From the NCBI GenBank assembly GCA_032622095.1, contig CP136062.1, positions 201,339,959 through 201,403,958 on the forward strand: 64,000 bases of DNA, in the 5' to 3' direction. Shown in pieces: positions 8,901 through 60,608 of the stretch; the first letter of the stretch is position 1; each line of letters begins with the position of its first letter. The position numbers and the translations under genes are program-made. The DNA comes from Siphonodentalium dalli (Eukaryota; Mollusca; Scaphopoda; Gadilida; Siphonodentaliidae). The notes beneath the pieces are model-generated. The model was not told where the DNA came from, searched no databases, and was given only the letters and a program-made list of their open reading frames with translations.

Positions 8901-11900
8901 ACCATATTGGACCCATCCAGCCCCGTCCGCGCATTCAGTGCTACAGGTCAAAGTTCTGGAATATAGCATTCCACATTTGGAGCTTTTTAATACTCACGAA
9001 TTCCATAAATATGGAATTCAAAACTCCATATATGGAATTCTACTCCAGAACTTTCATCTGTAGCACTTAAACCGCGGAATGGTGCTGGATGGATCCAATA
9101 TGGTAGCGACTCAGTGATCTCGCTTATTGCCTGGGCCCAGGATTTGGCCGCATATATCTATATGGAGTTCAGAAACTTTACTTGCGCAACGACAAAGAAG
9201 GCATGCCACTTCTAAATCTGATAACTATGACGTTTACCACTCGATGCTCACCATGCAGTGTTTGAATATCCTGACTGTATTTTTTGAAAAATTTCGAACA
9301 GTAGTACGCATTCCAAGGTCAGACTTCATCGTTTTCAGATTTGATGGGAGTAGCGGCATGCATGCCTTCCTGGTGAATAACAATGTGTCGTGAATGATAG
9401 GGCCGAGGGAATCCAACATGTTTGTAACTGCTTATCATATATGTGTGAAAGCTCTCAGTAGCAGCATGTGTCATGCTGTCGTGTAAACCGTCGACTGTTA
9501 TTCTTAAGTAAACGTATAACTGGTATGCTTTATTGCTAGACATGATTTAACATATTACATACAAACACATATACACATATTAATATTTACAAACGTGGAT
9601 TAGGATGCCTACAATGGGAGACAGACACATTGGAATGACAACTCTATATGCCACCGAGTCCTTTGTACATACATAAAGTACATGTATATGCTGTCGTGTA
9701 AACCGTTGACTGTTATCCGGAAAGTACATATATACAGTGCATGCATAGTATGCACATGCCCCAGCAAATTCACACCCTGGCCTTTCGATAGTCATGCGGC
9801 AAAATGTCCAGCTACGCCCTACATCGCTATTTCTGATGTGTCACCATGACAATATCGAGATTGATGTTTCACTCTTGTCATGACGAGGATGACTCACCAA
9901 GTTGGTGAGGTCCTAATCAGGAAAGACCTTATTTTGCGGACACTTTATTTGATGTGGATGAAAATGACAAAAGGTGGCATCTAATTCAAAGCTATAGTGA
10001 CAAACACATTTATCATATTTTCTGCTTCATTCCTTGATTTAATTTTTTCGAGCAGTTCACATTTATCGGATTTACATCATAAAACTCCCCAATATTGAAC
10101 AAGAACCAATTAACCGTGCAGTTGTTCCTGATAATCCATTGCTCTCACACAACCAAACTTCTATTCAAGGTACGTGGTATCAACTTCTTAAGGAAGTTAC
10201 ACATTTGGGAGTAACAATGTGTAAAATTCTGCAACGAATTCAACGAACTTTTAGTCCAGGCACATTAGGCGTGAATGGGAAAAAGTAAGGAAATAAATCC
10301 GGGAAAGCTGATTTTTAAAATATTATTTAGGCCATAACATCGCGGATGCGTCGCGAAAAGTCCCCTAAAATCGCAGTTGAGCTTTCGGAGTTAACCAATT
10401 TTTTCCATAAAAAATAAAAACTTTTAAGTTTTTCACAATCATAGGAATAATGGGATGATATAACAATTTTTCAGCCGAAACATATACCAAATGTACTCAA
10501 TATTGTTCAATACACAATTCTCGAATCAGAGATACAAATTCAACGGGGGGATTTGAATGAATTTCGGTGATATGGATATAAAATAACATAATGACCCCAA
10601 AAAATGACGATTTTTTCAGACAAACTGTCCTATTCGATGTCAAATTTCTCGGGCTATTCATTACGAAGGCGCAAGCAATTTTGTTTTAAAAACTGCACAG
10701 ACATCACTCCTACTATATAATATGCGGGATTAGCAACTATACCTATGATAAGTGGTCAATACTTGTAAAAACATAACCCTACCCCCTAAACTGGCTCTCG
10801 TCACATTTTGCTCTTCCGCTAGTCCAAGTGCTTGTTGTAGAAAACACACCAACTGTGAAAAGGGCAATACAAGCATGAAACTTGGCACATATGTTCATTA
10901 TACGCTACTGCTCATTTTCACATGTGGCGACATTTGCAACAGGCTCTTCTTGGCAACGGTTGCTAGGCAACTACCCGGCATCGGATTAATGCATATGACT
11001 GATATTATATGTGTTCTAACATACTAAACTACGTCGTGTAGCATGTTTATGGTGAACATATTTGTTGTCAGTTTTGACCTGACTGACAAATTACCATACT
11101 TCTTACTTACAAGGGGTGACGATTGCTAGGGACACACACACAATCTAAAAATGCACATATGACTGATATTATGGTAGCTTTAACAAACTAAACTACACCT
11201 AATAGCACTTTTATGTTGAAAACAATTAGAATAGTTGTTGTTAGTGTTGAGCTGGCTGAAAAAATACCATATAATTCTTACTTATATGAGTGGTAACTGT
11301 TGCCAGGGTCATACCCGAAATACAAAAATGCACATATGACTGATATTATGGTATTATTAACGTTTTTATGGTGAAAACAATTATAAATGTTGTTAGTGTG
11401 AGCCTAACCAGAATATGGGTATAATTATCCGTTATGCTCCATCAGTTTAGATATCGGGAATTCAAAGTGAGAGTTGAAAAGTTGTTGCTTATATTTAATA
11501 TGAGACATGGCCATAATAGTTATATAAGCCATAGACCCACACAGCTAGTTATATAATGTAAGTCACGGACCCACTCTATACTATATATGAAGAACATAGC
11601 TAGGGTCAGCCACCAATATGTTAGTCATGGCCCTAGCCTACAATAGTTAGGTTAGGAACCCAGGCACATACATTGTCACAGGACCCATGTCCATACATAT
11701 AGACTATGGACGTAGAATATGTATAGTCCATGAACCAGACCGCTTCATATAACCATACATGTATGGTATCTATGACCATGACCATGACACTGTTACATGG
11801 TGCAAATACCCAAGTGCCCACAGATAGACCATGTACTAAGATAACATAGACCAAGTCCGATGCACAATACATAAGTGCACCATTGATTCAGGAACCTATA

Positions 11901-14900: not shown

Positions 14901-17900
14901 CATTTGCGCAATTGTTATGTCAAACGCCAGGACTATTATATGGTATTTTTGTCTTTCAGACACTCAAAGCCATGGCGTACGTTTTAGGGGGTAGTGTTAT
15001 GTTTCCGGCTATAATATCTTAAGGATGGTGATGGTTCGATATATCTCATCACTTTCCTGTTTTGAACTAACCACTGTTCTAGTATAATGGTTCATATTTA
15101 GCTCATTGTCGTCTGAATATCTTTACTCGCCCTCTTTTGTTAGGAAAATTTTGAATCACCATGCGATTTATATGCTCTCTTCGCCAATAAATGTCATCAC
15201 AATTATGGAATATCGACTGTTAGTAAGCTCTAGCATCAATTACGCATATATATCGACACCTGCTTCATGATGGACGGGTATGTATGAAGATTGAGTCCAT
15301 AAAGTAGCCTACATATGACTGCATTCGCATATGGTCTAATGGAATTTCGTCAGAATTTGCACCATTACGAAAAATCATGATATCTCAAAAAGCTCAACTC
15401 GGATTCTAGGGGACTTTTGCCAAGTTGTTCATAAACATGTTCTTATTAATCCCTGAAATATTCAGCTTTCCCGGATTTTTTGCACTAGTGAAACCTAATG
15501 TGCCTGGACTATTTGCCTGGTTGACATGCAAAGATTTTTGAAGAACACATTGGACAATATGCAAAGTATCCTAATTGCATGTTGCGATTCATCGAGCTAA
15601 TTACTCACATAATATAGTTCTCTGTCCAATCGAGAGAGAATTCGTGAACGGTGTCCGCCCATGTTCCGCTGGGTATTTTGCTGTAAAGATAAACATATTT
15701 GGTGTCTATTTTATTATCTATTTTATCGAATGCATTCTACACCCTTGTTGCGTGGGGCTGACGAAATGCCTGGTGCAATCAAGAAGTAATTGAAGAACCA
15801 CGGTGGCCATGGCGGAAGTGGGAAGTAATCAGGTCCATTTGCAACATCCTGTCAATTCATTATTACTCAAGGGTGTTGCGAATATAAGGCTTCCACGCAC
15901 CGCCCGTCATCAAATTTGGAGAAGAAAAGTAGAACAGTTAGAGAGATAAGTTAGAGAGAGTTGGAAAGTCAGTAGCGGTTAGGTAGCTTTCACGTTCAGT
16001 ATTATGTTATGCCATGGCTGTCTAATCCAGCTACGCCCGTAGGGATCATATCCCATCAGTACAAACCCTGGGAACTTTTTGATGATGTGACAGTTGATAC
16101 CTGTTCCTTAAAGGCACGTGAGGCCTTAATTGTCGAAAATATTCATATTTGTTCCAAACACCGTAAACAGAAAAACATTAAAACGCATACAGTTTCGTTC
16201 ATATATACCATGACCATCGCGTAAACAGCATGTTATCATAAATACCTACTATATTTTACCTAAGCAAGAGCCTGATTGGGGTATAGAGGACAGCACAATG
16301 CTACTGGCTAATCACACACACATGGCATAAACGCTCTTTATTAGTTCCATATCAGGAATTCACCAACAAAGAACGCTCTTTATGTTTACCATCATAATAT
16401 AAACAAACACAAGAAAAATAACTTTTTATGCTTTTGTTTACATAACAATGGTTAAACATATGAGAATAACATACTGTTTATGCGATATTTCTTATTTATA
16501 TACGGACAAAGTCTGCCTACATTTTGATGTTCTTTCTGTTTGTGACTGTTTTTGACGGGTGGAAATATTTTCACAGGATACCCACCGCCAAGGCCAACCG
16601 TACCTTTAATAATGCACGAAGTTGCACGATTTAAGGGGTTTCCACATCTGAGCTATTACACATTGGACCTACATTGAAAACTACCTAATTGTCGATCTAA
16701 GTACACCACATGAAGGTGTCTATGCTATCTGAAGACCATATCAAGTATATTCATTAACTCTTTACCCAACAGAAGGGCCCTGTGCCAATGCATTCTCTTA
16801 TATATGCGAGTCGACCATAGGTCGCCTCGCATATATAAGAGAATGCATTGGCTTAACACATTAAAAATTATAAAATTGTTAAAGAATGTAAGAAAAAATG
16901 GTAAAAAGTGTTTTAGGCCAATGCATTCTCTTATATATTCGAGGCGACCTATGGTCGACTCGCATATATAAGAGAATGCATTGGCACAGGGCATAACTGT
17001 AACTATCACAATGTGGTCAAGGAGCCGGTTCCAATGATATCCATATTTGTATGGTTCTATTGAGACAGACCGAACATATTTTGGGCTGTTGAAGCTTTAT
17101 TTGGCCGGTTTTGGCCGGTTTTGTTGGGTAAAGGGTTAATAATAATAACAATGTCAAAAGATGACTTAGTCATATTTTAGAAGGGAAATTGTTGGGAAGA
17201 GCGTTCTTAACAAGTATACAAAATTATTGGCAATGAATAACTGCCATAAAAAGTACATGATCTGAACTAGTGAAGGGCTCGAATGAGTATTTATTTGCGA
17301 GAAACACTGCTTCAAGACTGTTAACAGAATGTTAGTTTGTGTTGGGAAATCGTAAGCATCCATTTTGCATGCAATGTTACCTTCAAGAACCAGCACAATT
17401 AATATAAATGTTGATATGCAGATTTTTCAGGTAGCAATCGACTGTAATAGGCCACAGTTTTAGAGATAGCTGGTCAGTTGGTTATTTGGCTATGGACATA
17501 TGACCTAAAATATTATGTTAGTTGTTGCAAAATGGATGCTTACATTTTTCCAGCACAAACTAACATTCTTTTAGCAGTCTTGAAGCAGTATTGTTCTCTA
17601 TTAAATTGTCATTCGAGTCTTTCACAAATGATCATGTGCTATAATCATATATAATCATCAAGATTTGCCTGATGTCCCCCCCCCCCCCCCCCCCTCCTGC
17701 ATCAATATATATTTCCCCTGATTTTCGTAAACTAACTAATAAAATGGCTGCACTGCCTAATTTATTCTTACTGCATTTCAAACTCATGGTGCTATACCCT
17801 GAATGCCCGGATGTTTGTTCGATCTGTTATAACTGTTATCATCTAAATGAATGCCTGAGGATTTGATGATCAAATGTCTGTCTGTTATATTACAGATTAT

Positions 17901-20900: not shown

Positions 20901-23900
20901 GTGCCAGCAAAATGACTTTACATTATGTCCCACTAATACACAGAGAGTACCTACAGTTTTGTTTGAATAACGAAATATCTCATGAGCGTCTGGAAAGAAA
21001 TATCGGCTCCAATCGCAAGTGAAAATTCGATATTTCTTTTCAGACACGAATGAGTTGTTTCAGGTATTCAAAGTAGGTATTCTTTTTATTATATGCACCT
21101 TATTAAGCTCAAAGTACAGCAATTTGAAAAAAATATTCGGGAAGAATACTTCCTAATAATCATAAGTGCACAATTACCTAGATAAAGCAACAAGACTCGC
21201 GCACAGAAATGAAACACGGACTCGAAACTAACAAGTCTCCGTGTCGAAATATATAAATCCCACGTCACCGGTCACAACTGCATGGTGCGTGATAAGTTGC
21301 GGCTAGCCAACGGAAACCCCGAATACCGGACGACACTTGCATGATCAATCCATAATTAGGTGTCTGTTTCAACTTTAAGCGCGTGTGATTTTCTTCGGAA
21401 AGTTGTTCGCTTGTTATTGACTTATTAAAGTATAAGATATAACTCTAATTTCGAATGAGGTTAGGGGTTATAACCGATAATTTTGCAGATAATTTACTAT
21501 ATCGCGCGGTTATGGAATTTGTCTTCAAATTTTTCGCTCGCGTAAACCACCCCGTCGACCCGGCATGCATGCTACAATGAAATATAACGAAACCTACAGT
21601 GAAAATACGACACCGTATTTCACTGTGGCGTCTAAGAGATACATACCAAGATAATTTCCCGCTATTTTATATAGGCAAGCATATAATAAATATGACCTCT
21701 TCTGTACTTGTATATTATCTGTCGTCTGCTTATTTTTCATAGAAAGCCCTCATACCCTTCCAGATGAATAATATACCATTCCAATGTATTCGTTTATAAT
21801 TGAGCGGGAGAATCCATTTAGCATAGCAAATCATAACGAGCATTTGTCTCACTTCTGCGTGAAAAGTGCAAAACAAGATAAGGAAAATATCTGCGCAATG
21901 TTTTTCATTGTATATAGAGCCTTACTAGCTGGTGGGCCCGACTTCGTCCGGGCTATTCGTCCGGACTATATAGGGATTTCTTTGCCAGAAACATGACTAT
22001 ATGAGCGTATATGAGCAAGGACACGGTCGCATGCGAAATTGGACCCGATTTGATCTTGAATTGACCATTTTGAAGGTCAAGGTCAGGTCGGGGTCACGAT
22101 TTGACCCGTCCAAAACACTCTCCGGACAAAAGTACCCCTAGGTATCAAATTTCGTCGAAATCCGTCCGTTTTACCCGATTTGACCTTGAATTGACCATTT
22201 TGAAGGTCAAGTTGGGGTTACGATTTGTCCCGTCCAAAACACTCCCCGGACAAAATTAACCTTAGGTATCAAATTTCGTCGAAATCCGTCCGTTTTACCC
22301 GATTTGACATTGAATTGACCATTTTGAAGGTCAAGGTCAGGTCGGGGTCACGATTTGACCCGTCCAAAACACTCCCCGGACAAAAGTACCACAAGGTATC
22401 AAATTTCGTCGAAATCCGTCGGGCAGTTTTCCCGGCCATTGCTAATAAACAGACAGACAGAAAGACAGACAAACAGACAAACAGACAGAAGTCCCAAAAT
22501 ATATATTAGATGTCGTGCACATGTATTTATCTCATACCTCCTAAATTGCGTAGACATAATTTATATGTTCAAAGAAGCAGAAATAAAATGTATTTGGAGC
22601 AGACGCTTGGCACCATATATAACACCACGAAGCACTATGATATGTATGCTTATTCGTACCTCTTGCTTCCATCATGTCGATCTCGCCTCCTGTCGGCCAG
22701 CCGCCGTACATTTCCTTCTTTGGTAGGATCCATATTGCTGAATTGCAGAATAAAATGTAAAAAGGGTTATTAAACAAGAGGTTACACCATAGGTGTTGGT
22801 ATATCCGTACATAGTGCCAAATGTTAAAACACAAACAGAATGGAACTCACATTTTAACCCTTTACCCAACAAACCGGCCAAAAACGGCCAAATAAAGCTG
22901 CAACAGCCTAAATTATCTTGGGTCTGTCTCAATAAAACCATACAAATATGGATATCATTGGAACCGGCTCATTGACCACATTGTGATGGTTACAGTTATG
23001 CCATGTGCCAATGCATTCTCTTATATATGCGAGTCGACCATAGGTCGCCTCGCATATATAAGAGAATGCATTTTTTAAAAACTTTTTACCATTTTTTCTT
23101 ACATTCTTTAACAATTTTATAATTTTTAATGTGTTAAGCCAATGCATTCTCTTATATATGCGAGGCGACCTATGGTCGACTCGCATATATAAGAGAATGC
23201 ATTGGCACAGGGCCGTTCTGTTGGGTAAAGGGTTAAAGCAAATAAAATGGAAAATGCGAACATTACCATTTGACATTTCATTGATAGCTAGGCTAGTGAA
23301 AGCCTTACAGATGGTTAACACCCATATGAATTGTTATTGCGATCCTATAACCCATGACTGATAACCTGCGCAGACGAACATAAATCCATGATATCGAGAT
23401 AAATGAAAAAGATTAACCCCAGAACAGAAAACAAAACGCGAACAACGTGTTGGCCCCTTTGTTGAAAGATCTCCTGATGGCTAACCTCCATAAACAAAAT
23501 TCAGATCTGGTAAGCAATTGCTGAGATATCGTTGTGTGGACGGACAGACACCCATCATTTCCAGAGAAACACAGAAGGATAACTCTAGAACTGGAAACAC
23601 GAACAGCATTATTGAGCCCTCTTTTGATATGCCTACGAACCGACATATCAAATTGCATTGTTATATCAACTAAACCATGGCTGATATATACAATCAATAA
23701 TGTCCAAATAAACAAAGAAAAGATAACGCAGGAAAGAAACACGTCATAAGTCCTTCTTTTGGCAGCACTTTTTATGACAAACCTCGAGATCTATACAAAA
23801 TTTAATTGAAATCGGTTGAAACATGCATGCATAGATGGCGGAGATATCTGCGCGAATGGACTGGGGGGGGGGGGAATTAGTGTCAGATAAACAAAGAACA

Positions 23901-29900: not shown

Positions 29901-32900
29901 CTCGTTCCCATATGATTCACAATTGTTCATAGTATCCCTGACCATTCTGTTAGAGGAAATATACTTTTATTTGCTTTAAAGCCACTGCCTACAACCATAT
30001 ATTATCATTAATTTGGATCCTGCATGGGCTCCATGCCAATTTTAAAGTCGGATCCGGATTTCAGGGATGGATGTTGTTCTTAAATTCTGCCTATTATCAA
30101 GTATACTCACCGGTCGCAGGAACAAGTTGTCGTTCTTGAAGTATAAGTTACGCTCAAGGGGAGTATACACTTGGAATTCTTCGTTCTACAAATAAACGAA
30201 AACCCGGGACACAGATGTAATAAGAGCAGCCATTATTAAATATTTTTAAATATATATATTCTTGAGTGTTTATAATGATATATAATGGCTTTTCTTCGAA
30301 TCTTTCGGAAATATCTCTAAAATGACCAATTATGAAAATTAATGGTACTTTCCTTAAAAGCATCATTTTGCCCCACGATGCAGTATCATTATTTTGCTAA
30401 ATCCGCAGGACCCACCAACTTCATAGCAAATTAGCACGCAGGACCGCTTGACCATGCAGTCGATCTGTTACAATATAGATCGCAGGATCTGACGAATAAA
30501 TACAGTAGTAGACTCGTAGATATATAGGAAAATCGATTGGAAGCTTACAGGGATGTTGTGACATGGGGCGGGTGTTCTCCTATTGTGGTAAGTATTTTCA
30601 ACAATTGGAAATTTCACGCCTGACACAACATATTTTTCTGGTTAACAGTTTTTGACTCGAATGATCATCACCAGTTGGAAATTGTCCAACCCTGATGGGG
30701 CCAACAGTTTGGAAGTTTGATATATTAGAAGATCGAGGCCCCCAACAAATACAATCTAGACACGTTCCTGATTTGAAGGTTTCACATGTACAGCATCATC
30801 TGCTAGGAAATATGTATTCATGGTTCTATAAGTAGGTCCTTTTTTTTAATCACGATTGCCTAATTACACAGTTACAGGAAAATATTTTACACAGATTCTT
30901 TGTTGACCGGAAAGACATTTTGAAGTGATATCATTTACAGCACCGAAGAGAAAATGGAACATTTTTCCCGCAACCAGTTATGTTTTGGATGGACACCGCT
31001 GACAAGGGTCGTGACTAGATGGCATCTGTTTGTGGAGTGTTCAAAAGTTCCAACTGCATGCCTTTGAACTATACCCAAATACCCAGGTTCGGGGAATTCC
31101 ACAAATCAAACCAAACCCTTGGGTTTGTAATATTCAACCTGGTACATCTAGTTATGTTGTTTGAAATTTCAATGAAAGTAGGAAAATATTCGACTTTTTG
31201 TAAAAATAAATAAAAAATTAATAAGATAAACCCGCACATGTCGCTTTCGTCCTGTCCTTGTCCCTGACGACATTTCGAACGTTCTGATCGGTATAATCAA
31301 ATCGACCTGATTTGTTTCGACAGTTTATGATTTGTTAATACTATCCAACAAACTTTAACATTGTACATACTAAGAGGACGGAGGCATGGTCACCCTCTCA
31401 AAATGTTCAACGGTTGGAAATATCATGCATGTAAAAACATCGGTTGAAACTCTCATACCGAAATTGCTCTGATAGTTTGATTTGACAACCAATATACATA
31501 GTGTTAAATTAAATGTTTTAGGCCAAATTTCGGTTTTGAGTGAAAGCGAAATGGCCATAATTTTGAAAATGTTCATCCATGCATAAGGGAGATATAGGTT
31601 GGAATTTTCCACCATTTGAAAATCTTGATGTATACGTATAGCAGTTGGAAATTCCAACTCATAGGGGAATAGGAGGGTTGCATTTCGAAAATTCTACTTC
31701 GGACATTCCCAGCGGACACATTCTAGCCACGACATGACAATCGGAAGATCATTGTGTATTGTGTACACAATATGTTCTTCCTCCTCTCCACCTTTTGTAA
31801 TACTTTAAATTTCTCGATATCATGCTATTTTGATCAGCGAATAATGCATTATTATAAGGCTTGGGTAAACATGATTCTGACATAACCGTGACCGACTGAT
31901 GTTATATATATCGACGACACAATTATTACAAGAATCTTGTAAATGGGTGTTTGAATAACATAGAAACCGCGGGAGAGGGTGATGACGTTTATGGGTTTTT
32001 TGGAGAACACATGTGTGCATGTATGAGATTCCTGAAATGTTTGTTTAATCCTACTGACCTTTCCGCCATACATAGAAATCACAGTTTTCCAATCGTCACC
32101 TAACCGACTCCGCCCGGTAAATGTGTCTCGGAATATAATGGATCGAAACCGAGCTGACAGTTGTATCGTCGTGTCCGGAACTGAAAGTATACATGCACTA
32201 CATGTATCCAGGGCAACAAAAGAGAATGCTGAGAATCTAGTCATGCTACCTACCGCCGTATAATATGTTGACAACGGAGTTGGTATGGAACCTGCACCTG
32301 TGCAAATGGCCAAATACACTGAAACTGCATGGTGATCATGAACATCCAAGATGGCTGCTGGCGGCCAAGTGTTTCATAGAAATTCGGAAATATTACATAG
32401 CTCCCATATAAGAAGAATAGGAGGCTCGTTGGATCCACTTCTAAAAATAGAATCTTTGGGTCTAAAATTGGTTGTACTAAAATATTCCCAAAACTTCCAA
32501 AATATCAAAACCCAAAAAAAAATTCAAAACTTCCAAAATTAATTTTTTCCAAAAAATTTCAAAAACCCAAAACTTCCAAAAAAAATTTCAAAATCCCCAA
32601 ATTTCAAAAAAAGAAAAAATTTCAAAACCCCCCAAAATTATTTCTCTTAAAAAAAAGTTTAAATAAAAATTTTATAACGAGTTTTCGGTTTCTGATAATA
32701 TCGATATTAAAATGTCGAATGTTAAATTATTTGCGTGTAATATCTTTCGTTATTTTTTTTGTTCAACCAATGTTTCAATGTATTTATTAATCGATGTTTA
32801 GAAATAGCTTTATTGGACATTGTGACCATCGGTATGAATGCATACATTCCAGTGTTTATCGGACGCAGTTCATACATATATAATTGTCATACCTGAAAAT

Positions 32901-34668
32901 AGACACCATTACTCTTACATAAATAATAAAGAGCGTTTATTCTTTACACTCTCTATCCCAGATGAAGTTATTGAGTATATGACAGACATGTATTACCGTG
33001 AATTATTGGAAGTATTGAGATGTACTATCTTGAATCACGAGCGGACAACCCCCCAGAATGAATTGTCATATTCGATGGAACATATTATGTACACGTAATC
33101 ACACACGACATTGTGGGTAACAATGTGTCTTTCACACCTTGCTTTACCAAATGAATTCTATTATATTCCCGTTCACAGTTATATGCTATTCAGAAAACAT
33201 ATCGTGTTAATGTCTGAGCAGAATTAGTTGTTTAACGGGTTAGTATCAATTAAGGTTGATAAACTGTGTCATTGTTAGCATTAACACGATAATTAGTTAT
33301 CCAAAACATGCATACATAATACATCCAGGTCGTGAGACACTCAATTATAGAAATTGCTTCGGTGTCATTGTTATAACAACATTACGTAATAACCACTTAT
33401 CACTCCATTCACACTTACGATCATTTTGTATACCAAAACTCCAGTTAGCACCGATGATGTAACATTATATCACTGCTATTGTATCAATTGATAGGTTCAG
33501 ACAAGTTCGATGTTTAGAAAATAGATAATGTGCAGGTGTTCACTTGACAAGAGATTTTGTACACTCAATCACAGACCAAGGAGAAGTACTGTGTAGACAG
33601 GTCTTGTCGGTAAGAGAGTCAGACGAGAAGTGAAGACTCGGCTATTAAAACATAGTAATGCGATAGCGAACATCAAACGAGTCTGCGCACGCATATCTGT
33701 CAAAGGATACAATGGCAGTCATTGGTCAATTTATCCCCGGTGTCAGCTCAGTACAATAGCAGTCATTGGTCAATTTATCCCCGGTGTCAGCTCAGTACAC
33801 AATCGGCACGAAGCCGGAGGTCATAATTACTCTTACGAATGAAGAGCGTTGAACATATACGAAATTATTACACGAATGAACTGAAATTTATATTTCACAT
33901 CTTACCAACAACAGATACAGACATAGTCATAGTGTTATACTATCTTACATGTACCCATGCTATGACATCATTCGAAGGGGCAATACACTCAAGGAGTTAA
34001 AGTGACACGAAACAAGGGACGTGATGTAATATTGGTGTTTGAATCTTAAAGGAACACAAGACACTCTAAAGGGACACTCATTATGAATGAATGTTAACAA
34101 TACAAGCGCACGAATGAAGAGCGTTGAACATATACGAAATTACTACACGGCGGCGGCGGCGGCATTGCAGTATTTTACTGCGGGGTCCGCCGGCGGCGGA
34201 CCCCGGCGGCGGCGAGAGCTTTCCGATGAATGGCAACAAGCCATATTTCCGACTAACTCCTGAAAAGTTACCTATAATTCTGCTGTGGTTAAGCAGTCCA
34301 TTATTTAGTGCATAACTGTATCATCATGTCAGTCACCAGGTTACACATATCTATATAATAGAGTGTTCATATTGAAATCACTCATAATTGCATTGACATT
34401 TGGATAGGTAGGTTGTATTGTAGCTAATGTGATAAATTTGTATCCAGTACAAACAACACTAAGAGACGTTGTGAACGACAGCCTGAACTAGTTAACTAGT
34501 CCACCACGTTTCCCTTGTTTCTGTTCTATATAAATATAGGTGCATAGAAGAACGCTCGATTTCACTGATTATATAGGAAAATGAAGTATCAATGTGAAGA
34601 GTGTTTAAGTGTCTATGCTTGGCAAGATAGTTTGAAGCGTCATATCAAAGTTAAACACACACCTTCAG

Positions 34669-34702
<34 letters not shown>

Positions 34703-37700
34703 GTATCATCAGCCGCAACAACAACAACACCAACAACAACAACAACAACAACAGTATCATCAGCCACATCAGCCACAACAACAACAACAACAACAACATT
34801 ATCATCAGCCACAACAACAACAACAACAACACCAACAACAACAACAACAACACCACCACCAACAACAACAACAACAACAACCACAACAACAACAGCCACC
34901 AAGCGACATAACATCCTGCTTTGATGATCCAATGGCCAATGTCCATGAAGATTTTATTTTCAAGCATCCATTCACGGCATGTGTAAGTGGACCGACATCT
35001 TGTGGTAAGACATACTTCGTGAAAACCTTACTACAAAAGTCTGCCTCAAAAATATCACCCGCACCTGACAGAATAATATGGTTTTATAAATATTGGCAGC
35101 CCCTATATGACGAATTAAAGTATACCGTCACCCCTCAGGTCAACTTTATACGAGGAATACCAGCAAACTTGGATTCTCTTATCAACCCCCGGTATAAAAA
35201 TCTAGTTATACTCGATGACTTGATGCAAACTTCATCAAAAGACCAGAGAGTTAATGATTTGCATTCCGAAGGAAGTCACCATTTGAACTTATCTTTGATA
35301 AGTTTGAACCAGAATTTCTACTACAACAAAGATCCAACGCAACGACGAAATTGTCAATATTTGGTATTGTTCAATAACCCAATCGACAAGGGATTAATTT
35401 CAACATTATCAAGACAGATGTATCCTGAATGTCCTCAGCGTATGGTTCGAGAGTTTTCGGAAGCGACGAGTGAACCGTACGGTTACCTACTGGTGGATTT
35501 AAAAGCCGCAACACCGGACACATTACGTCTGCGACAGAATGTACTAAAAGAGGACACGAACCAACATAGGGGTGAATGGAATGGCATGAAATATAATCTC
35601 CAAAAAGACAGAGAACACCCAGATGAACAGAATGGGATGAAAAAACATACAAAAGACACTGAGACCCAGGGTCAACAGAATGCGATGAAATACGATGACA
35701 GAGAACTCCCCGGTCAACAGAAGGGCATAACATATAATTATATTGTGCCCCAGGGTCAACATAATGACTATACTAACGACATACGGCCACCTGGTGAGCT
35801 CGATGAAATTAATAAGAAGAACCATCAAAACAGAGACATTCGAGAAGACATGTCGTACCCTTGTAATGAATGCGGGCTTTTGTTCGCAGATCATTATGAT
35901 GTTCAGAGACACGTAAAAAACTGGTGTCAAGAAAATAAGTTAAAACGAAAATTAACTGAGGACCCGGATGAACACGGAGTTATGTCCGAGACAAAAACAA
36001 CTCTCTTCGGAGAAGATACAGATGAAGATGAACGGGGAACGCTATCAGATTCAAAAGATGGTAATGTCGTCGGTAGTAGAACGGTATTCGGTCTTAAGAA
36101 AGCTGCGCGATGTGTCAACGAGATGGACACATTCAAAAGTATGATGAAACGCGTCACCAATGATGTGAAAGAAGAAGAGAGCATTTCGGGAGATGAGAGC
36201 ATGTCGGGAAAAGAGGATACCATCGACACAGAGTTTGCTCTGTTTCGCAAAAGTTATAGACGATTAATAGAATACCAGTATCGATTGAAAACATCACCCA
36301 TACATAACACGATCATGAAGAAAATGGTCAAACTGACCAAACGCGGATATAATAATGAATGGGCTGCAGATGAAGCGATGAGAAAATTCAAGAAACTCTT
36401 AGAAGTAAATCTAAAGGTCGAAGATTCAGACAATGATTAAATTTCAATAAACTTCATCAACATGTTATTCTCGTCTTCGTTATATATCTATAAGTGGGGA
36501 GGGGGGTTTGTATAGCGAGAATGCTCCTTTAATATTCACACACCAATATTACATAACGTCCCTTACCTCGTGTCACTTTAACATTCCACACACCGTGTGT
36601 GCATTATCCCCCTTTAAGTATGTCATAGCATGGGTACATGTAAGATAATATAACACTATGACTATGTCTGTATCTGTTGTTGGTAAGATGTGAAATATAA
36701 ATTTCAGTTCATTCGTGTAGTAATTTCGTATATGTTCAACGCTCTTCATTCGTGCGCTTGTATTGTTAACATTCATTCATAATGAGTGTCCCTTTAGAGT
36801 GTCTTGTGTTCCTTTAAGATTCAAACACCAATATTACATCACGTCCCTTGTTTCGTGTCACTTTAACTCCTTGAGTGTATTGCCCCTTCGAATGATGTCA
36901 TAGCATGGGTACATGTAAGATAGTATAACACTATGACTATGTCTGTATCTGTTGTTGGTAAGATGTGAAATATAAATTTCAGTTCATTCGTGTAATAATT
37001 TCGTATATGTTCAACGCTCTTCATTCGTAAGAGTAATTATGACCTCCGGCTTCGTGCCGATTGTGTACTGAGCTGACACCGGGGATAAATTGACCAATGA
37101 CTGCTATTGTACTGAGCTGACACCGGGGATAAATTGACCAATGACTGCCATTGTATCCTTTGACAGATATGCGTGCGCAGACTCGTTTGATGTTCGCTAT
37201 CGCATTACTATGTTTTAATAGCCGAGTCTTCACTTCTCGTCTGACTCTCTTACCGACAAGACCTGTCTACACAGTACTTCTCCTTGGTCTGTGATTGAGT
37301 GTACAAAATCTCTTGTCAAGTGAACACCTGCACATTATCTATTTTCTAAACATCGAACTTGTCTGAACCTATCAATTGATACAATAGCAGTGATATAATG
37401 TTACATCATCGGTGCTAACTGGAGTTTTGGTATACAAAATGATCGTAAGTGTGAATGGAGTGATAAGTGGTTATAACGTAATGTTGTTATAACAATGACA
37501 CCGAAGCAATTTCTATAATTGAGTGTCTCACGACCTGGATGTATTATGTATGCATGTTTTGGATAACTAATTATCGTGTTAATGCTAACAATGACACAGT
37601 TTATCAACCTTAATTGATACTAACCCGTTAAACAACTAATTCTGCTCAGACATTAACACGATATGTTTTCTGAATAGCATATAACTGTGAACGGGAATAT

Positions 37701-40700
37701 AATAGAATTCATTTGGTAAAGCAAGGTGTGAAAGACACATTGTTACCCACAATGTCGTGTGTGATTACGTGTACATAATATGTTCCATCGAATATGACAA
37801 TTCATTCTGGGGGGTTGTCCGCTCGTGATTCAAGATAGTACATCTCAATACTTCCAATAATTCACGGTAATACATGTCTGTCATATACTCAATAACTTCA
37901 TCTGGGATAGAGAGTGTAAAGAATAAACGCTCTTTATTATTTATGTAAGAGTAATGGTGTCTATTTTCAGGTATGACAATTATATATGTATGAACTGCGT
38001 CCGATAAACACTGGAATGTATGCATTCATACCGATGGTCACAATGTCCAATAAAGCTATTTCTAAACATCGATTAATAAATACATTGAAACATTGTTCGA
38101 ACAAAAAAAATAACGAAAGATATTACACGCAAATAATTTAACATTCGACATTTTAATATCGAGATTATCAGAAACCGAAAACTCGTTATAAATTTTTTAT
38201 TTAAACTTTTTTTTAAGAGAAATAATTTTGGGGGGTTTTGAAATTTTTTCTTTTTTTGAAATTTGGGGATTTTGAAATTTTTTTTGGAAGTTTTGGGTTT
38301 TTGAAATTTTTTGGAAAAAATAAATTTTGGAAGTTTTGAATTTTTTTTTGGGTTTTGATATTTTGGAAGTTTTGGGAATATTTTAGTACAACCAATTTTA
38401 GACCCAAAGATTCTATTTTTAGAAGTGGATCCAACGAGCCTCCTATTCTTCTCATATAGAGGTCACCCCGAAGGTCCATGCGTAGGTTGGTGACAATTGG
38501 ACGAGGGATGTGGTCTGCATATGTTTAGTGTGTGTCGAAGGATTTTTTCATTCAAAGAGTAAAATCAAAGATGGCTGCCGGTGGCCATGTTTTTCATTGA
38601 AAATCGTTTAAACATGTCTGTAAATAAAACATTCAAAACATTTCTGCAACAAATGTGGGTTGTAGGGTGAGCCGATGGATTCAAATGTGAAATCAAAGAT
38701 GGCTGCTGGCGGCCATGTTTTAACGAATTTTGGAAACATTATTTGGCTCCCATCTAGATCTATAGATGTCAATCTGAACATCCATATGAAGTTTGGTGGC
38801 GATGAGGATAAGGGATGTGGCCTGTATAGGGTGTGCCGATGGAAATTGTTGACGGATGTACAGACGGACGCACGGACGCCAACCCATGGCAATGAAAGTG
38901 TATAAATTCTACTAGTATAGTAGGAAGAGTAACGTTGATCCCTCCCTTATTTGTATAGAAATGAAAATTATGAAATTACCGTTGTTTCTCATTCATACGG
39001 CACGGATTCGCTGACCGGTGCGAATATTTAACTGTGAATGGCTTGAGGCATATAGACATACTGTAGTTTAAGTCTAATAACACCAAACAACTAATTCCCA
39101 CAGCTGCTGCGGGTCGTATGGTTCTGCCCAAGAACCAAACAACCCTACCCTAAAGAACACAATGAGTCCAGATAGTTTTCAACATGTAATTCTGAGCTAC
39201 ATTTATGGTAAGCGGAAAATATCTTCAGGATTTTTGTTACTAATTATGTGTCAAATCGGACTGAATATATAGATTGTGTGGACGGCAAATGAGAACTCGG
39301 TAATCAGTTTGTTTTTTCTTATAGAGAAAGCGATTAATTTTATGGGCAGGGCAGAACAACATGGATGTCCGGAACAGATTAATCGGTCTACGCGTCGACC
39401 TACCAGCGATCCATTGCCCCTCGTCGAGAACCTTGTATCTTGAGTCCCGGTAAGACAGGACCTTGTAGTTTAGTTTATCCCCGGCCCTGAGATTGGTGTT
39501 CAGAGTCCCGCCATAGTTGTAGATTTCTGAAAGTGACGGAATTTAACACTTAGTCACTCATAGCTGCAATGGGGGAACAATACGTAATATATTGTATATA
39601 ATATTATATCAGCACCAAAAGTAAGTCCCCTCTGATATTTATGAGAATATTTGAAAATAACTTGTTTCGATTAAGTGTATGTCTATAACGCGCGTAGTAA
39701 ATTTGTCTGAAAACTGTCCGGTTATAACGCATATATTTTCTGGAAAAGTTACCGACACCGATTAAGTTCATCGACGTATAACCTTAGTGGCTAATTAAAG
39801 GTACGGTTGGCCTTGGCGGTGGGTATCCTGTGAAAATATTTCTACCGCCACAAACAGAAAGAACATCAAAATGTAGACAGACTTTGTCCGTATACAAATA
39901 AGAAATATCGCATAAACAGTATGTTATTGTCAAATGTTTGACCATTGTTATGTAAACAAAAGCATAAAAAGTAACTTTTCTGGTGTTTGTTTATATTATG
40001 ATAGTAAACATAAAGAGCGTTCTTTGTTGGTGAATTCCGGATATGGAACTAATAAAGAGCGTAGCAGTAGCATTGTGCAGTCTTCTGTAACACAATCAGG
40101 CTCTTGCTTAGGTAAAATATAGTAAATCTTTATGATAACATGCTGTTTATGCGATGGTCATGGTATATATGAACGAAACTGTATGCGTTTTAATGTTTTT
40201 CTGTTTACGGTGATTGGAACAAATATGAATATTTTCGACAACTAAGGCCTCACGTGCCTTTAAGCGGCAACCAATCGTATTACAGTATTTTGAGACTTGA
40301 CAGCTTGTGACTAGATTATTATATCTTCGGAAATAAGAGTCATAATAGAAATTATGCATGTTTGATTAAATAAGAGCAAACTTGTCTATACTAATAACAT
40401 ACAGAGAGTTTTAGTCATAAATCATCGACTCAAGACTTTTCATTTGAAATACTGACTATGATATTAGGGAACAATGAATAATTTCGTCAACATGGCCAAG
40501 TCGTGAGTCATACCAACGACATTAGCTTACCTACCTGGATGCAAGACGAATGTCTGTATCGTGTTGAATGTGATTTGGTTGTTAACGCTATAAAGGAAAA
40601 TGGTTGGTTCCTCTCTTGCTGAAATCAGAAAATGATCCTCGTTAATTGGAATGGGGAAATAGGCAGGCGGTATTCCAGTCTGTTCTCCCGATTTTCTCCC

Positions 40701-57750: not shown

Positions 57751-60608
57751 CTAGACAGTATGCATTGATGTTACTTTGCGTAGTATTCTGGCAGTGCCAA
57801 GAAGTGCAGTTTTCTGTAGGTGAGCAACATCTATGGAGGTAGGAAGTAGGGCTAGCCATTTGCTAATATTGTTGCTCACTGCCCCAGTTGCACCAATCAC
57901 TATAGGTATGATGGAAGTTTTCATTTGCCACATACGACTCACCTCTATTTGTAGGTCAATATACTTCCTGACCTTTTCTGTTTCTTTCTGGGTGACATTA
58001 TAGTCACTTGGGATCGAAACATCTATGAGCAGACACGTGTTGTCGTCCCTGTTCTTGACGATTATGTCTGGTCTGCTACACGAGATGGTTCGGTCAGTGT
58101 GAACCTGTGTGTCTCAAATGACTGTAATGTTGTCTCTAGATCTTACATTCTGAGGAGAGTGTTCATACCATTTATCTGCAGATTGCATGTTATAATGCTT
58201 ACAGATGGACCAATGAACATATCGCCCAACGTTATTATGGCGTTCAAGGTATTCTGAACTCGCTAATCTTGGACAAGCAGATATAATATGTTCTCTACTG
58301 TCTCAGGGTGCTGGTGGCATACTCTACATGTAGGATCAATATTCTTCCGAAGGATCTTGTTTTGGTAGTATCGGGTACTAATGACCTGATCTTGAGCAGC
58401 AATAAGAAGGGACTCGGTCTGAGCCTTCAAGCCTGCATTCTGCAACCATCTGAATGTTGCCGTGCTATCATACTCTTGTTCGTTGATTTTTCTGGCGTGT
58501 TGTCCGTGCATTCGTTTCAGTTCATATCGCTCTGTCCGTTTGTCTTTCATTTTTTTCTTCAGTTCTAGTTTCAACTTTTTGGCCTCCTCCGTTTATTGGT
58601 TCGTGTCTCGATACCAAATTCTGTTCTGAACTGCAGTGCCTGTTTAGTTATGGAATATTTCTTTTTGTTATTTTCATGTCGTTGAAGGCATTTTATGTAC
58701 ACATCACTGCTATTCCTGATATACCTATCAAGACCAACCACTGCCACTTTATAGGCACTCGCCAACTCAATTAAACCTCTGCCACCATATTTTCGTGGTA
58801 AGTATATCCTGTCCACATCTGCCTTACTGTCATGCATGCCACTGGCTGTTAATAACTTTCTTGTTTTCTGTCTAATTGTGTTATTTCGTTCATCCTCCAG
58901 TCTATAACACCGAAGCTGTAACTGATTACTGGGACTGCTAAGCTATTATAGCCATGATCTTATATTTGGCATTCAAATTCCGATTTCAAAATCTGTCGGA
59001 CTCTTCTTTTGTATTCTGCTATTATTTTGCTTTTCATTTTTTGCATGTTCTACTCCATCATATTCGTCAACTCCAAGATATTTATACACTTCTGTCTGGT
59101 CCAGTTCCTTTATGGGTGCCCTTCTCGTCTAATGTAAAATCACCTTTTGTTTCAATTTTACCTTTAACACAAGTCAGTTTGGCACATTTGTCATAGCCGA
59201 ATTCCATTCTTATATCATTACTATAAGATCTCACAACGTCGAGTTGTTGCTCCAATTGATGTTCGTTGCACCCATATAGTTTTATATCATCCATATACAG
59301 CAGGTGTGACAGTTTTGTCTCACCCTGTTGCCCCCCGATGGAGTACCCAGTATTCAACGAGTTGATCTCAGAGCTCATTGGGAAAAAGCTTATGCAAAAC
59401 AGGAGGGGAGACAAAGAATCTCCTTGGAAGATGCCATTTCTAATGCGAATGTCACCTGATACAATCTCACCCTCGCTGTGTGTCAAATGCATTGTTGTTT
59501 GCCATTTTTTCATGACATTGTCCAGGAAATTTATCATGGTTGAATTAGCTTTATAAATCTTGAGTGACTGCACGATCCAGCTATGAGGAACACTATCAAA
59601 GGCCTTTCTATAGTCGATCCATGCGGTACTCAAGTCTCTCTTTGTGTTGCGGCAGTGCTCCATCACCATTTTGTTAAGGAGGAGCTGGTCCTTGCAGCCC
59701 ATGCTTCCTTTACAACAGCCCTTCTGCTCCTTTGGAATAAGGTTGTTATGGGATAGATGTTTGTACAATCTCTCAGTTAGAACGGATGTGAGAATTTTGT
59801 AGAGAGTAGGTAAGCAGGTGATGGGTCGATAATTTTTCGGGTTTGATGTGTCACTGGTTTTGGAGAGCAAAAATGTGACACATTTTAATAGCCAGTCTGG
59901 TGATTCGTCGGGTTTGGTAATCAAGTCACTGAACGATCTTGCAATGTGTGGATGGCAAGTTGTAAACTGCTTCAACCAATAATTTTGGATATTGTCTATT
60001 CCAGCTGCTTTCCAGTTGTGCGTTTTGCTGATAGCATACGAGACTTCTTCTTGCGTAATATCATGTCAGTACTGTTCATTAATATCCGCATTTCTCTCAA
60101 TCTCCTTTGTGATCCATTCAGCTTCAGCATTATGTGTCTCGTTCCTCTCCCATATACCCTTCCAGAATGTTTCTAGTTCTACTTTGTCGGGAGGCATTGT
60201 AATTGTTATTTTAGTTTCATTCATATCTCTATAAAACTTCTTTGTGTTATTAGCAAATGTCTTGTTCTGTCCAAACTGCTTTGACCTTCTTTCGTATCTA
60301 CGTATTCGCTGTGACTTTGCCTGGATTTTTTGTTTCAGTGTTTCCATCACTTCTTCCATTGTTCTGTCGCTATTAATTACATATTTTCTGAGTATCTTCC
60401 TTTTTTTATGTTCATTTAATTTCTCATTTTTCAACTCAGTTAGTGTTGATAAATCTGCTCGAAATGAATCTATTTTTTTCTTTATTCGCACCTTCCACTT
60501 TGGTTCTTGATTTTGTGTTTGCTTGTGTGGTCGAACCTTTGCGTCCACCTTCTCAGATATGAGTTGTGCGGCAATGTACAGCACAGTGTTTATCTCTGTT
60601 AAGCTCAT
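57751..60608 (-). pseudogene. RLE-type non-LTR retrotransposon, nearly full-length but broken
   Basis: Minus strand, in order. 60608-60066 is a basic, coiled N-terminal part. 59975-59082 is a reverse transcriptase with NYRPITCLPT, WIDYRKAFDSVPHSW (motif A), QGDSLSPLLF (motif B) and LYMDDIKLYG (YMDD). 58837-58571 is the thumb, with YLPRKYGGRGLIEL. 58574-58263 has CRVCHQHPETVENI (CCHC). About 58092-57751 is a restriction-like endonuclease with RPDIIV...LLIDVS and a conserved IPIVIGATGAVS tail, with the stop at 57751. Frameshifts near 60000, 58840, 58570 and 58260 disable it. It belongs with endonuclease-of-RLE-type LINEs (R2/R4/NeSL group); the clade is not fixed here. Confidence 0.88.

Follow-up and report, generated by a model that had tools for sequence, protein, structure and literature searches.

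A probable deletion derivative of a palindromic Polinton satellite in the genome of the scaphopod Siphonodentalium dalli

Non-autonomous elements and virus satellites are known kinds of genetic element. Phage satellites such as phage-inducible chromosomal islands (PICI) and P4 redirect the packaging of their helpers, and virophages encode their own capsid proteins. Palindromic genomes that can fold back on themselves are known from adenovirus defectives, which have inverted end duplications, and from self-complementary adeno-associated virus (AAV). Polintons (Mavericks) are marked by a 6-bp target-site duplication, long terminal inverted repeats (TIRs), an ATPase of the A32/FtsK-HerA type, and genes for a protein-primed PolB, an rve-type integrase, a double jelly-roll capsid protein and an adenovirus-type protease; to our knowledge, it is an open question whether they form virions in nature. 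According to PMC4028283, their ATPases belong with the motors that package the genomes of double-jelly-roll viruses. Here we describe a 6,042-bp element at positions 32411-38452 of a 64-kb stretch of DNA (contig CP136062.1, hereafter the window) from the mollusc Siphonodentalium dalli. The original prediction, made from the letters of the window, took it for a complete Polinton-like element with a single ATPase gene. We consider it probable that it is a deletion derivative of a palindromic, self-complementary Polinton satellite, which would be mobilised by a helper and compete for helper capsids.

With a full Polinton of the same genome (the helper), the window element has in common the 6-bp duplication, long TIRs, AG...CT ends, an outer ~1.1 kb of TIR at 94-96% identity and a homologous ATPase core. 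Unlike the helper, it has no genes for PolB, integrase, protease or capsid, its full relatives are palindromic, and its ATPase reads outward and has zinc fingers, a polyglutamine (polyQ) stretch and an extra C-terminal domain. Like PICI and P4, the satellites would be small, helper-dependent elements that may carry a packaging factor of their own; unlike them, they are eukaryotic DNA elements with Polinton-type ends, palindromic, and with a whole motor paralog. Virophages and other giant-virus satellites are comparable in their hyperparasitism on a DNA virus and their kinship with Polintons, but the satellites examined yielded no capsid gene. Fold-back palindromic genomes and end repair between terminal repeats recall adenovirus defectives and self-complementary AAV, from which the present elements differ in that they carry genes, are inserted in the genome as a family and have a motif that recurs at the centre.

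The window element displays some of the Polinton hallmarks. As predicted, its termini read AGAAGAATAG...CTATTCTTCT (AG...CT ends), CATATA abuts it on both sides and its TIRs are long, albeit not perfect (99.66% identity over 1,739 bp, or six differences). The predicted gene was likewise found intact, as a 619-aa open reading frame (ORF) encoding GPTSCGKT, VILDDLM and two C2H2-like fingers. In Pfam, its product matched Pox_A32 (25.1 bits, cut-off 22.8) and came slightly below the cut-off for zf-C2H2 (24.2 bits, cut-off 25.2); it had no match in PHROGs. This gene is the sole ORF >150 aa in the element, where no PolB, rve-type integrase, capsid or protease gene was found, in agreement with the prediction, and the DNA match to the helper is confined to the ends.

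A search of the 2.23-Gb assembly (nine contigs) with the window TIR scored 40 candidates, from which 20 loci (numbered with the prefix L) were fetched. When 16 of these and the window element were compared with their own reverse complements, six of the 17 (L009, L010, L013, L017, L018 and L020) matched over their whole length, or nearly so, at 98-99.6%. Arms of 3.5-3.7 kb were found in L015, L016 and L024, and shorter ones in L011, L012, L019, L022, L025 and the window element; in L023, an arm match of 3,810 bp at 99.7% ends near tandem repeats at the element ends. Full palindromic relatives measure ~8.3-8.7 kb and have one outward-facing gene copy per arm. Genes are intact in both arms at five of the 20 loci (L009, L010, L013, L023 and L027), the others having one intact gene or none. 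Positions 34210-34600 of the window match the centre-to-gene spacer of L013 at 99.5%, and a GC-rich centre precedes them, directly after the left TIR. Far from being complete, the window copy is thus a palindrome minus one of its two gene copies, with the left gene lost up to the palindrome centre. The whole-length inverted repeat with a recurring centre is a property of the family and no longer of the window copy.

Two loci in the same set, L024 and L025, share TIR positions 1-1344, have no ORF >170 aa and contain internal repeats spaced ~360 bp apart. An inverted partial copy of the end region lies beside the satellite in L020 (1-281 and 752-1032).

Full Polintons sharing the TIR ends, for which the original prediction proposed a search, do occur. 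One was read, as two adjacent unjoined pieces (L037 and L038). Window TIR positions 15-1119 are 96% identical to L037 and positions 204-1169 are 94% identical to L038; the full satellites likewise have their terminal ~1.1 kb and their end sequence in common with this Polinton, as well as a duplication of 6 bp, which is TATGCC on both sides of the helper. Beyond these ends, no DNA match of ≥60 bp links the window element or an arm of L009 to the helper pieces. The helper encodes PolB (PF03175, E 2.1e-52), a 614-aa ORF upstream of it that has no Pfam match and looks like the N-terminal part of PolB, an integrase with a chromodomain (PF00665, E 3.4e-15), a protease-like ORF cut at the L038 edge (PF00770, 20.1 bits against a cut-off of 21.3) and a 221-aa ATPase (Pox_A32, 17.6 bits, below the cut-off). 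A 420-aa ORF without a Pfam match is capsid-like, its product having the look expected of a double jelly-roll capsid protein. In having its terminal sequences in common with an autonomous helper whose enzymes it lacks, the window element resembles a helper-dependent satellite.

The ATPase core of the satellites is 31-32% identical in amino acids to the helper ATPase (31% for the 221-aa protein), retains Walker A, Walker B and many shared positions, and is a distant paralog of it. The ATPase gene in L038 adjoins the right TIR and reads inward, and the satellite genes read outward; this difference, together with the low protein identity, rules out a simple inverted duplication of the ATPase end of this helper. 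A recent deletion of a local Polinton, which had been offered as one explanation of the window element, also fails for the kind examined, in view of the paralogous gene, its opposite direction and its extra finger and C-terminal domains.

The helper further encodes an unexpected module for a Polinton, a PC4-like transcription coactivator (PF02229, 4.9e-14) and a TATA-binding protein (PF00352, E 2.9e-32) at L037:8492-9103 and 9115-9639, of which we found no description in a Polinton at the level of titles and abstract openings. A second PolB class, with ORFs of ~1,100-1,330 aa, was seen at C9:149526415-149528322 and 149534960, one of which has a helper-type ATPase ~7 kb away.

Across the genome, the 20-bp end pattern is matched exactly 639 times in forward and 625 times in reverse orientation, against 0 + 0 matches for a reversed control, which excludes chance; these ~1,260 ends correspond to up to about 630 elements. 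The first 100 end places listed, on contig C1 below 160 Mb, gave 44 pairs and 12 unpaired ends. Ten pairs span 15.6-17.4 kb, 17 span 7.6-8.8 kb, 10 span 9.1-11.1 kb and seven have other sizes. A 4-letter variant near the end agrees between both ends in 43 of the 44 pairs (4.5 expected). Gene matches, sorted on C1 below 159.7 Mb, fall into three classes: Polintons of ~16 kb with the 221-aa ATPase, palindromes with the zinc-finger ATPase (type A), and elements with a zinc-finger protein that shares its C-terminal domain (type B). Helper ATPase or PolB matches lie inside all 10 large pairs, and satellite and helper matches occur together in none of the 44. The outcome named beforehand as contradicting the prediction, that all other copies carry the standard Polinton gene set, thus did not occur. 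The matches falling inside listed pairs were 12 of 15 for type B, four of four for type A, eight of 10 for the helper ATPase and five of six for PolB of the ~952-aa kind; 24 of the 34 smaller pairs have no gene match in the best-candidate lists, and their class is assigned from size or, for a few, from fetched DNA. Within 5 kb, the 71 type A matches form 23 divergent gene pairs and the 150 type B matches 48; the 150 helper ATPase matches form none.

Hypervariable blocks near the end (NNGN, then a second, NNCNNC) differ between elements, the first being the end-matched one. A strict co-variation of the N-terminal finger with the end variant was ruled out, as the finger MKHQCSICSRGY... occurs with ATGT in L009, CTGG in L010, GAGG in L011 and GGGT in L016. 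Several ends have a second, offset copy of the terminal block ~71 bp inside.

The CATATA pair at the window element behaves as a target-site duplication, in line with the original prediction. When the flanks of the element are joined at a single CATATA, dozens of paralogous repeats match them through the junction at ~71-76% identity; the left flank contributes only ~70 bp to this alignment, the repeat is repetitive within itself, and the target letters at the junction are left unread. Cleaner empty paralogous sites, aligned through the junction, were obtained for L009, L023 and L025, and loosely only for L016. The empty site of L023 has exactly one CATATA in both copies of its target repeat present in the window; these two paralogs lie at 16754-17139 and 22853-23237. 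An exact 6-bp duplication flanks 11 of the 13 fetched elements checked at both ends, a check that left out seven of the 20 loci (L014, L017, L020, L021, L022, L027 and L028); L015 has one mismatch and L018 no duplication, its right end being uncertain. Given the arm substitutions, the differing flanks and the fitting 6-bp duplications, an assembly artefact can be rejected.

The centre motif GCATTGCRGTATTTTACTGCGG has 304 + 320 matches genome-wide (control 0 + 0). In the gene-sorted part of C1, 38 of 51 listed motifs lie inside listed pairs; of these, 26 are no more than 250 bp from the pair centre and nine are >500 bp off; 17 of 34 smaller pairs and none of the 10 helper-size pairs contain it. 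The centre remnant in the window folds better than shuffled sequences (z -3.06), to which its GC repeats contribute. Over the outer 1,170 bp, the two arms differ by 1-8 substitutions in nine of the 11 satellites compared (L023 was misaligned by tandem repeats, and L011, L017, L018, L020, L022 and L026 were left out). In the one helper examined, 28 substitutions and 140 gap columns separate the two ends, whose outermost 80 bp are identical. Identity between the arms of an element is mostly 98-99.9%, and elements depart from the window TIR by 3-10%. Arm identity and matched end variants point to the copying of one end or arm from the other.

We propose that, through the shared ends, helper PolB would replicate the satellite and helper integrase would insert it. 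Because the strands are self-complementary, each displaced strand could fold onto itself at the GC-rich centre, forming a ~4.2-kb hairpin that already has a duplex end; this would explain how arms remain nearly identical despite 3-10% divergence between elements and the window TIR. Adenovirus end repair and self-complementary AAV offer analogues of such snap-back copying, and the arm homogeneity and the centre motif favour it here. The satellite ATPase, tied to DNA by its zinc fingers, would most likely replace the helper motor or compete with it, and satellite DNA would thereby enter helper capsids.

The lists of type A, type B and helper ATPase matches are the best-scoring ones and are biased to intact copies. 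Type A comprises 71 scored matches, mostly 97-99% identical, of which seven have a stop and 64 are stop-free; the 150 best type B matches are 99-100% identical, none with a stop, and the best 150 helper-type ATPases are 97-100% identical, four of them with a stop. Very different versions of the N-terminal finger and C-terminal domain are joined to a near-constant ATPase core, the least variable part of the protein, a sign of module exchange. The type B protein, of 189-200 aa, consists of a C2H2-like finger and the type A C-terminal domain (62-76% identical), with no ATPase in the ORFs seen. L040-L042, all type B, also carry a 107-aa ORF, which in L041 is 76% identical in amino acids to a 108-aa gene of the helper; sharing with the helper is therefore confined to the ends in type A only. 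No relatives outside the genome were found in viral_contigs or phages, and a search of solved structures gave two matches only, at E about 0.3.

Within the same satellite family, the zinc-finger ATPase might be no packaging motor at all and instead bind satellite or helper DNA for replication, for resolution of the hairpin centre or for interference with helper genes. Type B keeps this alternative alive, as it dispenses with the ATPase and not, so far, with the finger and C-terminal domain, which leaves DNA binding plus that domain as the common factor. The core nevertheless keeps Walker A and B and many positions of the helper ATPase, and varies less than the rest of the protein, and Polinton ATPases are counted among packaging motors (PMC4028283). 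We regard a non-motor role as unlikely.

The original prediction had proposed to check whether the ratio of nonsynonymous to synonymous substitution rates (dN/dS) of the ATPase lies below 1, and it does: by the method of Nei and Gojobori (NG86), applied to 13 elements, it is 0.62 for the whole gene, 0.42 for the core and 0.41 for the linker. This test and the first substitution count used ORFs of ≥400 aa containing SCGKT, which dropped broken copies and L012. Synonymous and nonsynonymous changes in the core stand at 4:1 when common to at least two elements, 0:1 when found in both arms of one element and 2:15 when found in a single gene copy (p = 0.009 for shared against single-copy changes, p = 0.021 when the both-arm change is included). 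A wider set with no motif filter (31 open pieces of ≥280 aa) gave 5:2 for shared and 3:21 for single changes (p = 0.006). Inherited changes thus lean synonymous and private ones do not, which suggests, without proving, purifying selection on the ATPase core. Of the ideas attached to the original prediction, helper dependence is probable, with the TIR ends shared by a full Polinton and the helper genes in every large pair, and selection on the gene has some support in these shared changes.

Several observations count against the satellite reading or narrow its basis. The selection test rests on few sites. Both-arm changes in the wider set (0:2) and shared linker changes (4:7) are not synonymous-rich, and dN/dS is higher over the whole gene, and in the C-terminal domain (0.65), than in the core. 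L013 and L014 have a common left flank, as do L020 and L021, and each of these pairs is probably a duplicated insertion; when the changes unique to such pairs are set aside, the counts become 2:0 against 3:21 (p = 0.03). Half of the smaller pairs lack an exact match to the centre motif, and some matches lie off-centre. The arms of L026, which contains 2,500 N, are only 89.7% alike, those of L016 differ by 18 substitutions, and arm identity could come in part from gene conversion after insertion. As to the motor, the open copy L012 has an altered Walker A (GPTYCGKT), a structure prediction for the ATPase core from a two-sequence alignment had a mean pLDDT of 42.8, too low for use, and the case for motor function consists of a Pfam match just over the cut-off and the 31-32% identity to the helper ATPase. 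Replication, packaging and particles of the satellites are all inferred from sequence data.

The elements might also be non-autonomous transposons with a functionless passenger ORF, the palindrome being a one-off rearrangement that spread and the intact frames a mark of youth. Copies are indeed young, the best-scoring matches being mostly 97-100% alike; single-copy changes are mostly nonsynonymous, as for unselected inserted copies, and same-end relatives with no long satellite ORF exist (L024 and L025). This account is rather improbable given that shared core changes lean synonymous, also with the doubtful pairs set aside, and that there are two different coding satellite classes. The gene, moreover, is a distant paralog, and its frame has therefore probably remained intact for much longer than the current burst has lasted.

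Common ends, separate genes on separate elements and the helper-like gene of the type B element L041 would be compatible with mutualistic segments of one multipartite virus, in which the helper needs type A or type B proteins. The helper examined has its own ATPase, protease-like, capsid-like and integrase genes, and 146 of the 150 helper ATPase matches are stop-free, which makes this arrangement highly improbable. That the element arose from a full Polinton by one recent internal deletion, or that the host uses the gene, can be dismissed despite the intact ORF beside Polinton ends, since many copies at many sites, each with its own duplication, have the same structure, TIR interior and centre motif, and a different paralog in the opposite direction relative to the end.

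If the satellite reading is true, elements that keep a selected packaging-type motor and discard all else would suggest, indirectly, that there are helper capsids and that hijacking them pays. The full-length palindromes with a recurring centre also offer a natural record of element replication. The elements could be, and we advance this tentatively, the first case of gene-bearing, genome-integrated satellites of a Polinton virus that are self-complementary, have a recurring hairpin centre, carry a re-targeted motor (type A) or a finger/C-terminal module (type B) and compete for helper capsids in the manner of phage satellites. Polinton satellites that are palindromic or have only an ATPase, and gene-bearing end-to-end palindromes with a paralogous motor in particular, were not found described in titles and abstract openings, a scope outside which lie preprints and most subscription journals and which does not establish absence from print. 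The same literature search found no paper on adenovirus defective genomes with inverted end duplications.

The features of the window element are listed in Table 1.

Table 1. Coordinates of the window element and its features, in window positions.
Feature	Position	Strand	Remark
Target-site duplication CATATA, left copy	32405..32410	.	directly abuts element
Left TIR	32411..34149	+	outer ~1.17 kb common to full Polinton
Terminal block AGAAGAATAG-GAGG-CTCGTT-GGATCC	32411..32436	+	4-letter part variable between elements
GC-rich palindrome-centre remnant: GCATTGCRGTATTTTACTGCGG motif and GGGGTCCGCC/GGCGGACCCC hairpin	34150..34220	+	left gene missing up to here
Half-spacer, centre to gene	34210..34580	+	99.5% identity to half-spacer of full palindrome L013
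TATA-like box TATATAAATATA, upstream of gene	34527..34538	+	seen in sequence; putative function
Satellite gene, 619 aa: N-terminal C2H2-like finger, polyQ, A32-like ATPase, second C2H2-like finger, C-terminal domain	34581..36440	+	
Walker A GPTSCGKT	34989..35012	+	
Walker B VILDDLM	35205..35225	+	
Second C2H2-like finger (Pfam residues 426-446)	35856..35918	+	
C-terminal domain	35991..36437	+	common to type B satellite protein (62-76% aa over finger and domain)
AATAAA poly(A)-like signal	36446..36451	+	just past stop codon; putative function
Right TIR	36714..38452	-	
Target-site duplication CATATA, right copy	38453..38458	.	directly abuts element

The TIRs of the window element also contain an 86-aa ORF (32838-33098, + strand; 37765-38025, - strand), which is open in both helper pieces and, among the 20 satellite loci, in seven (L010-L014, L025 and one end of L024; 93 aa in L012). 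It is not open in the other 13 or in any of five type B loci, and its status as a gene is unproven. On C1, at 159746518-159773502, at least six ends in the same orientation, ~5.4 kb apart, form a tandem array of an element of the window family. Elsewhere in the window, an ORF at 59082-59702 (- strand) resembles, by eye, a fragment of a reverse transcriptase of the long interspersed nuclear element (LINE) type.

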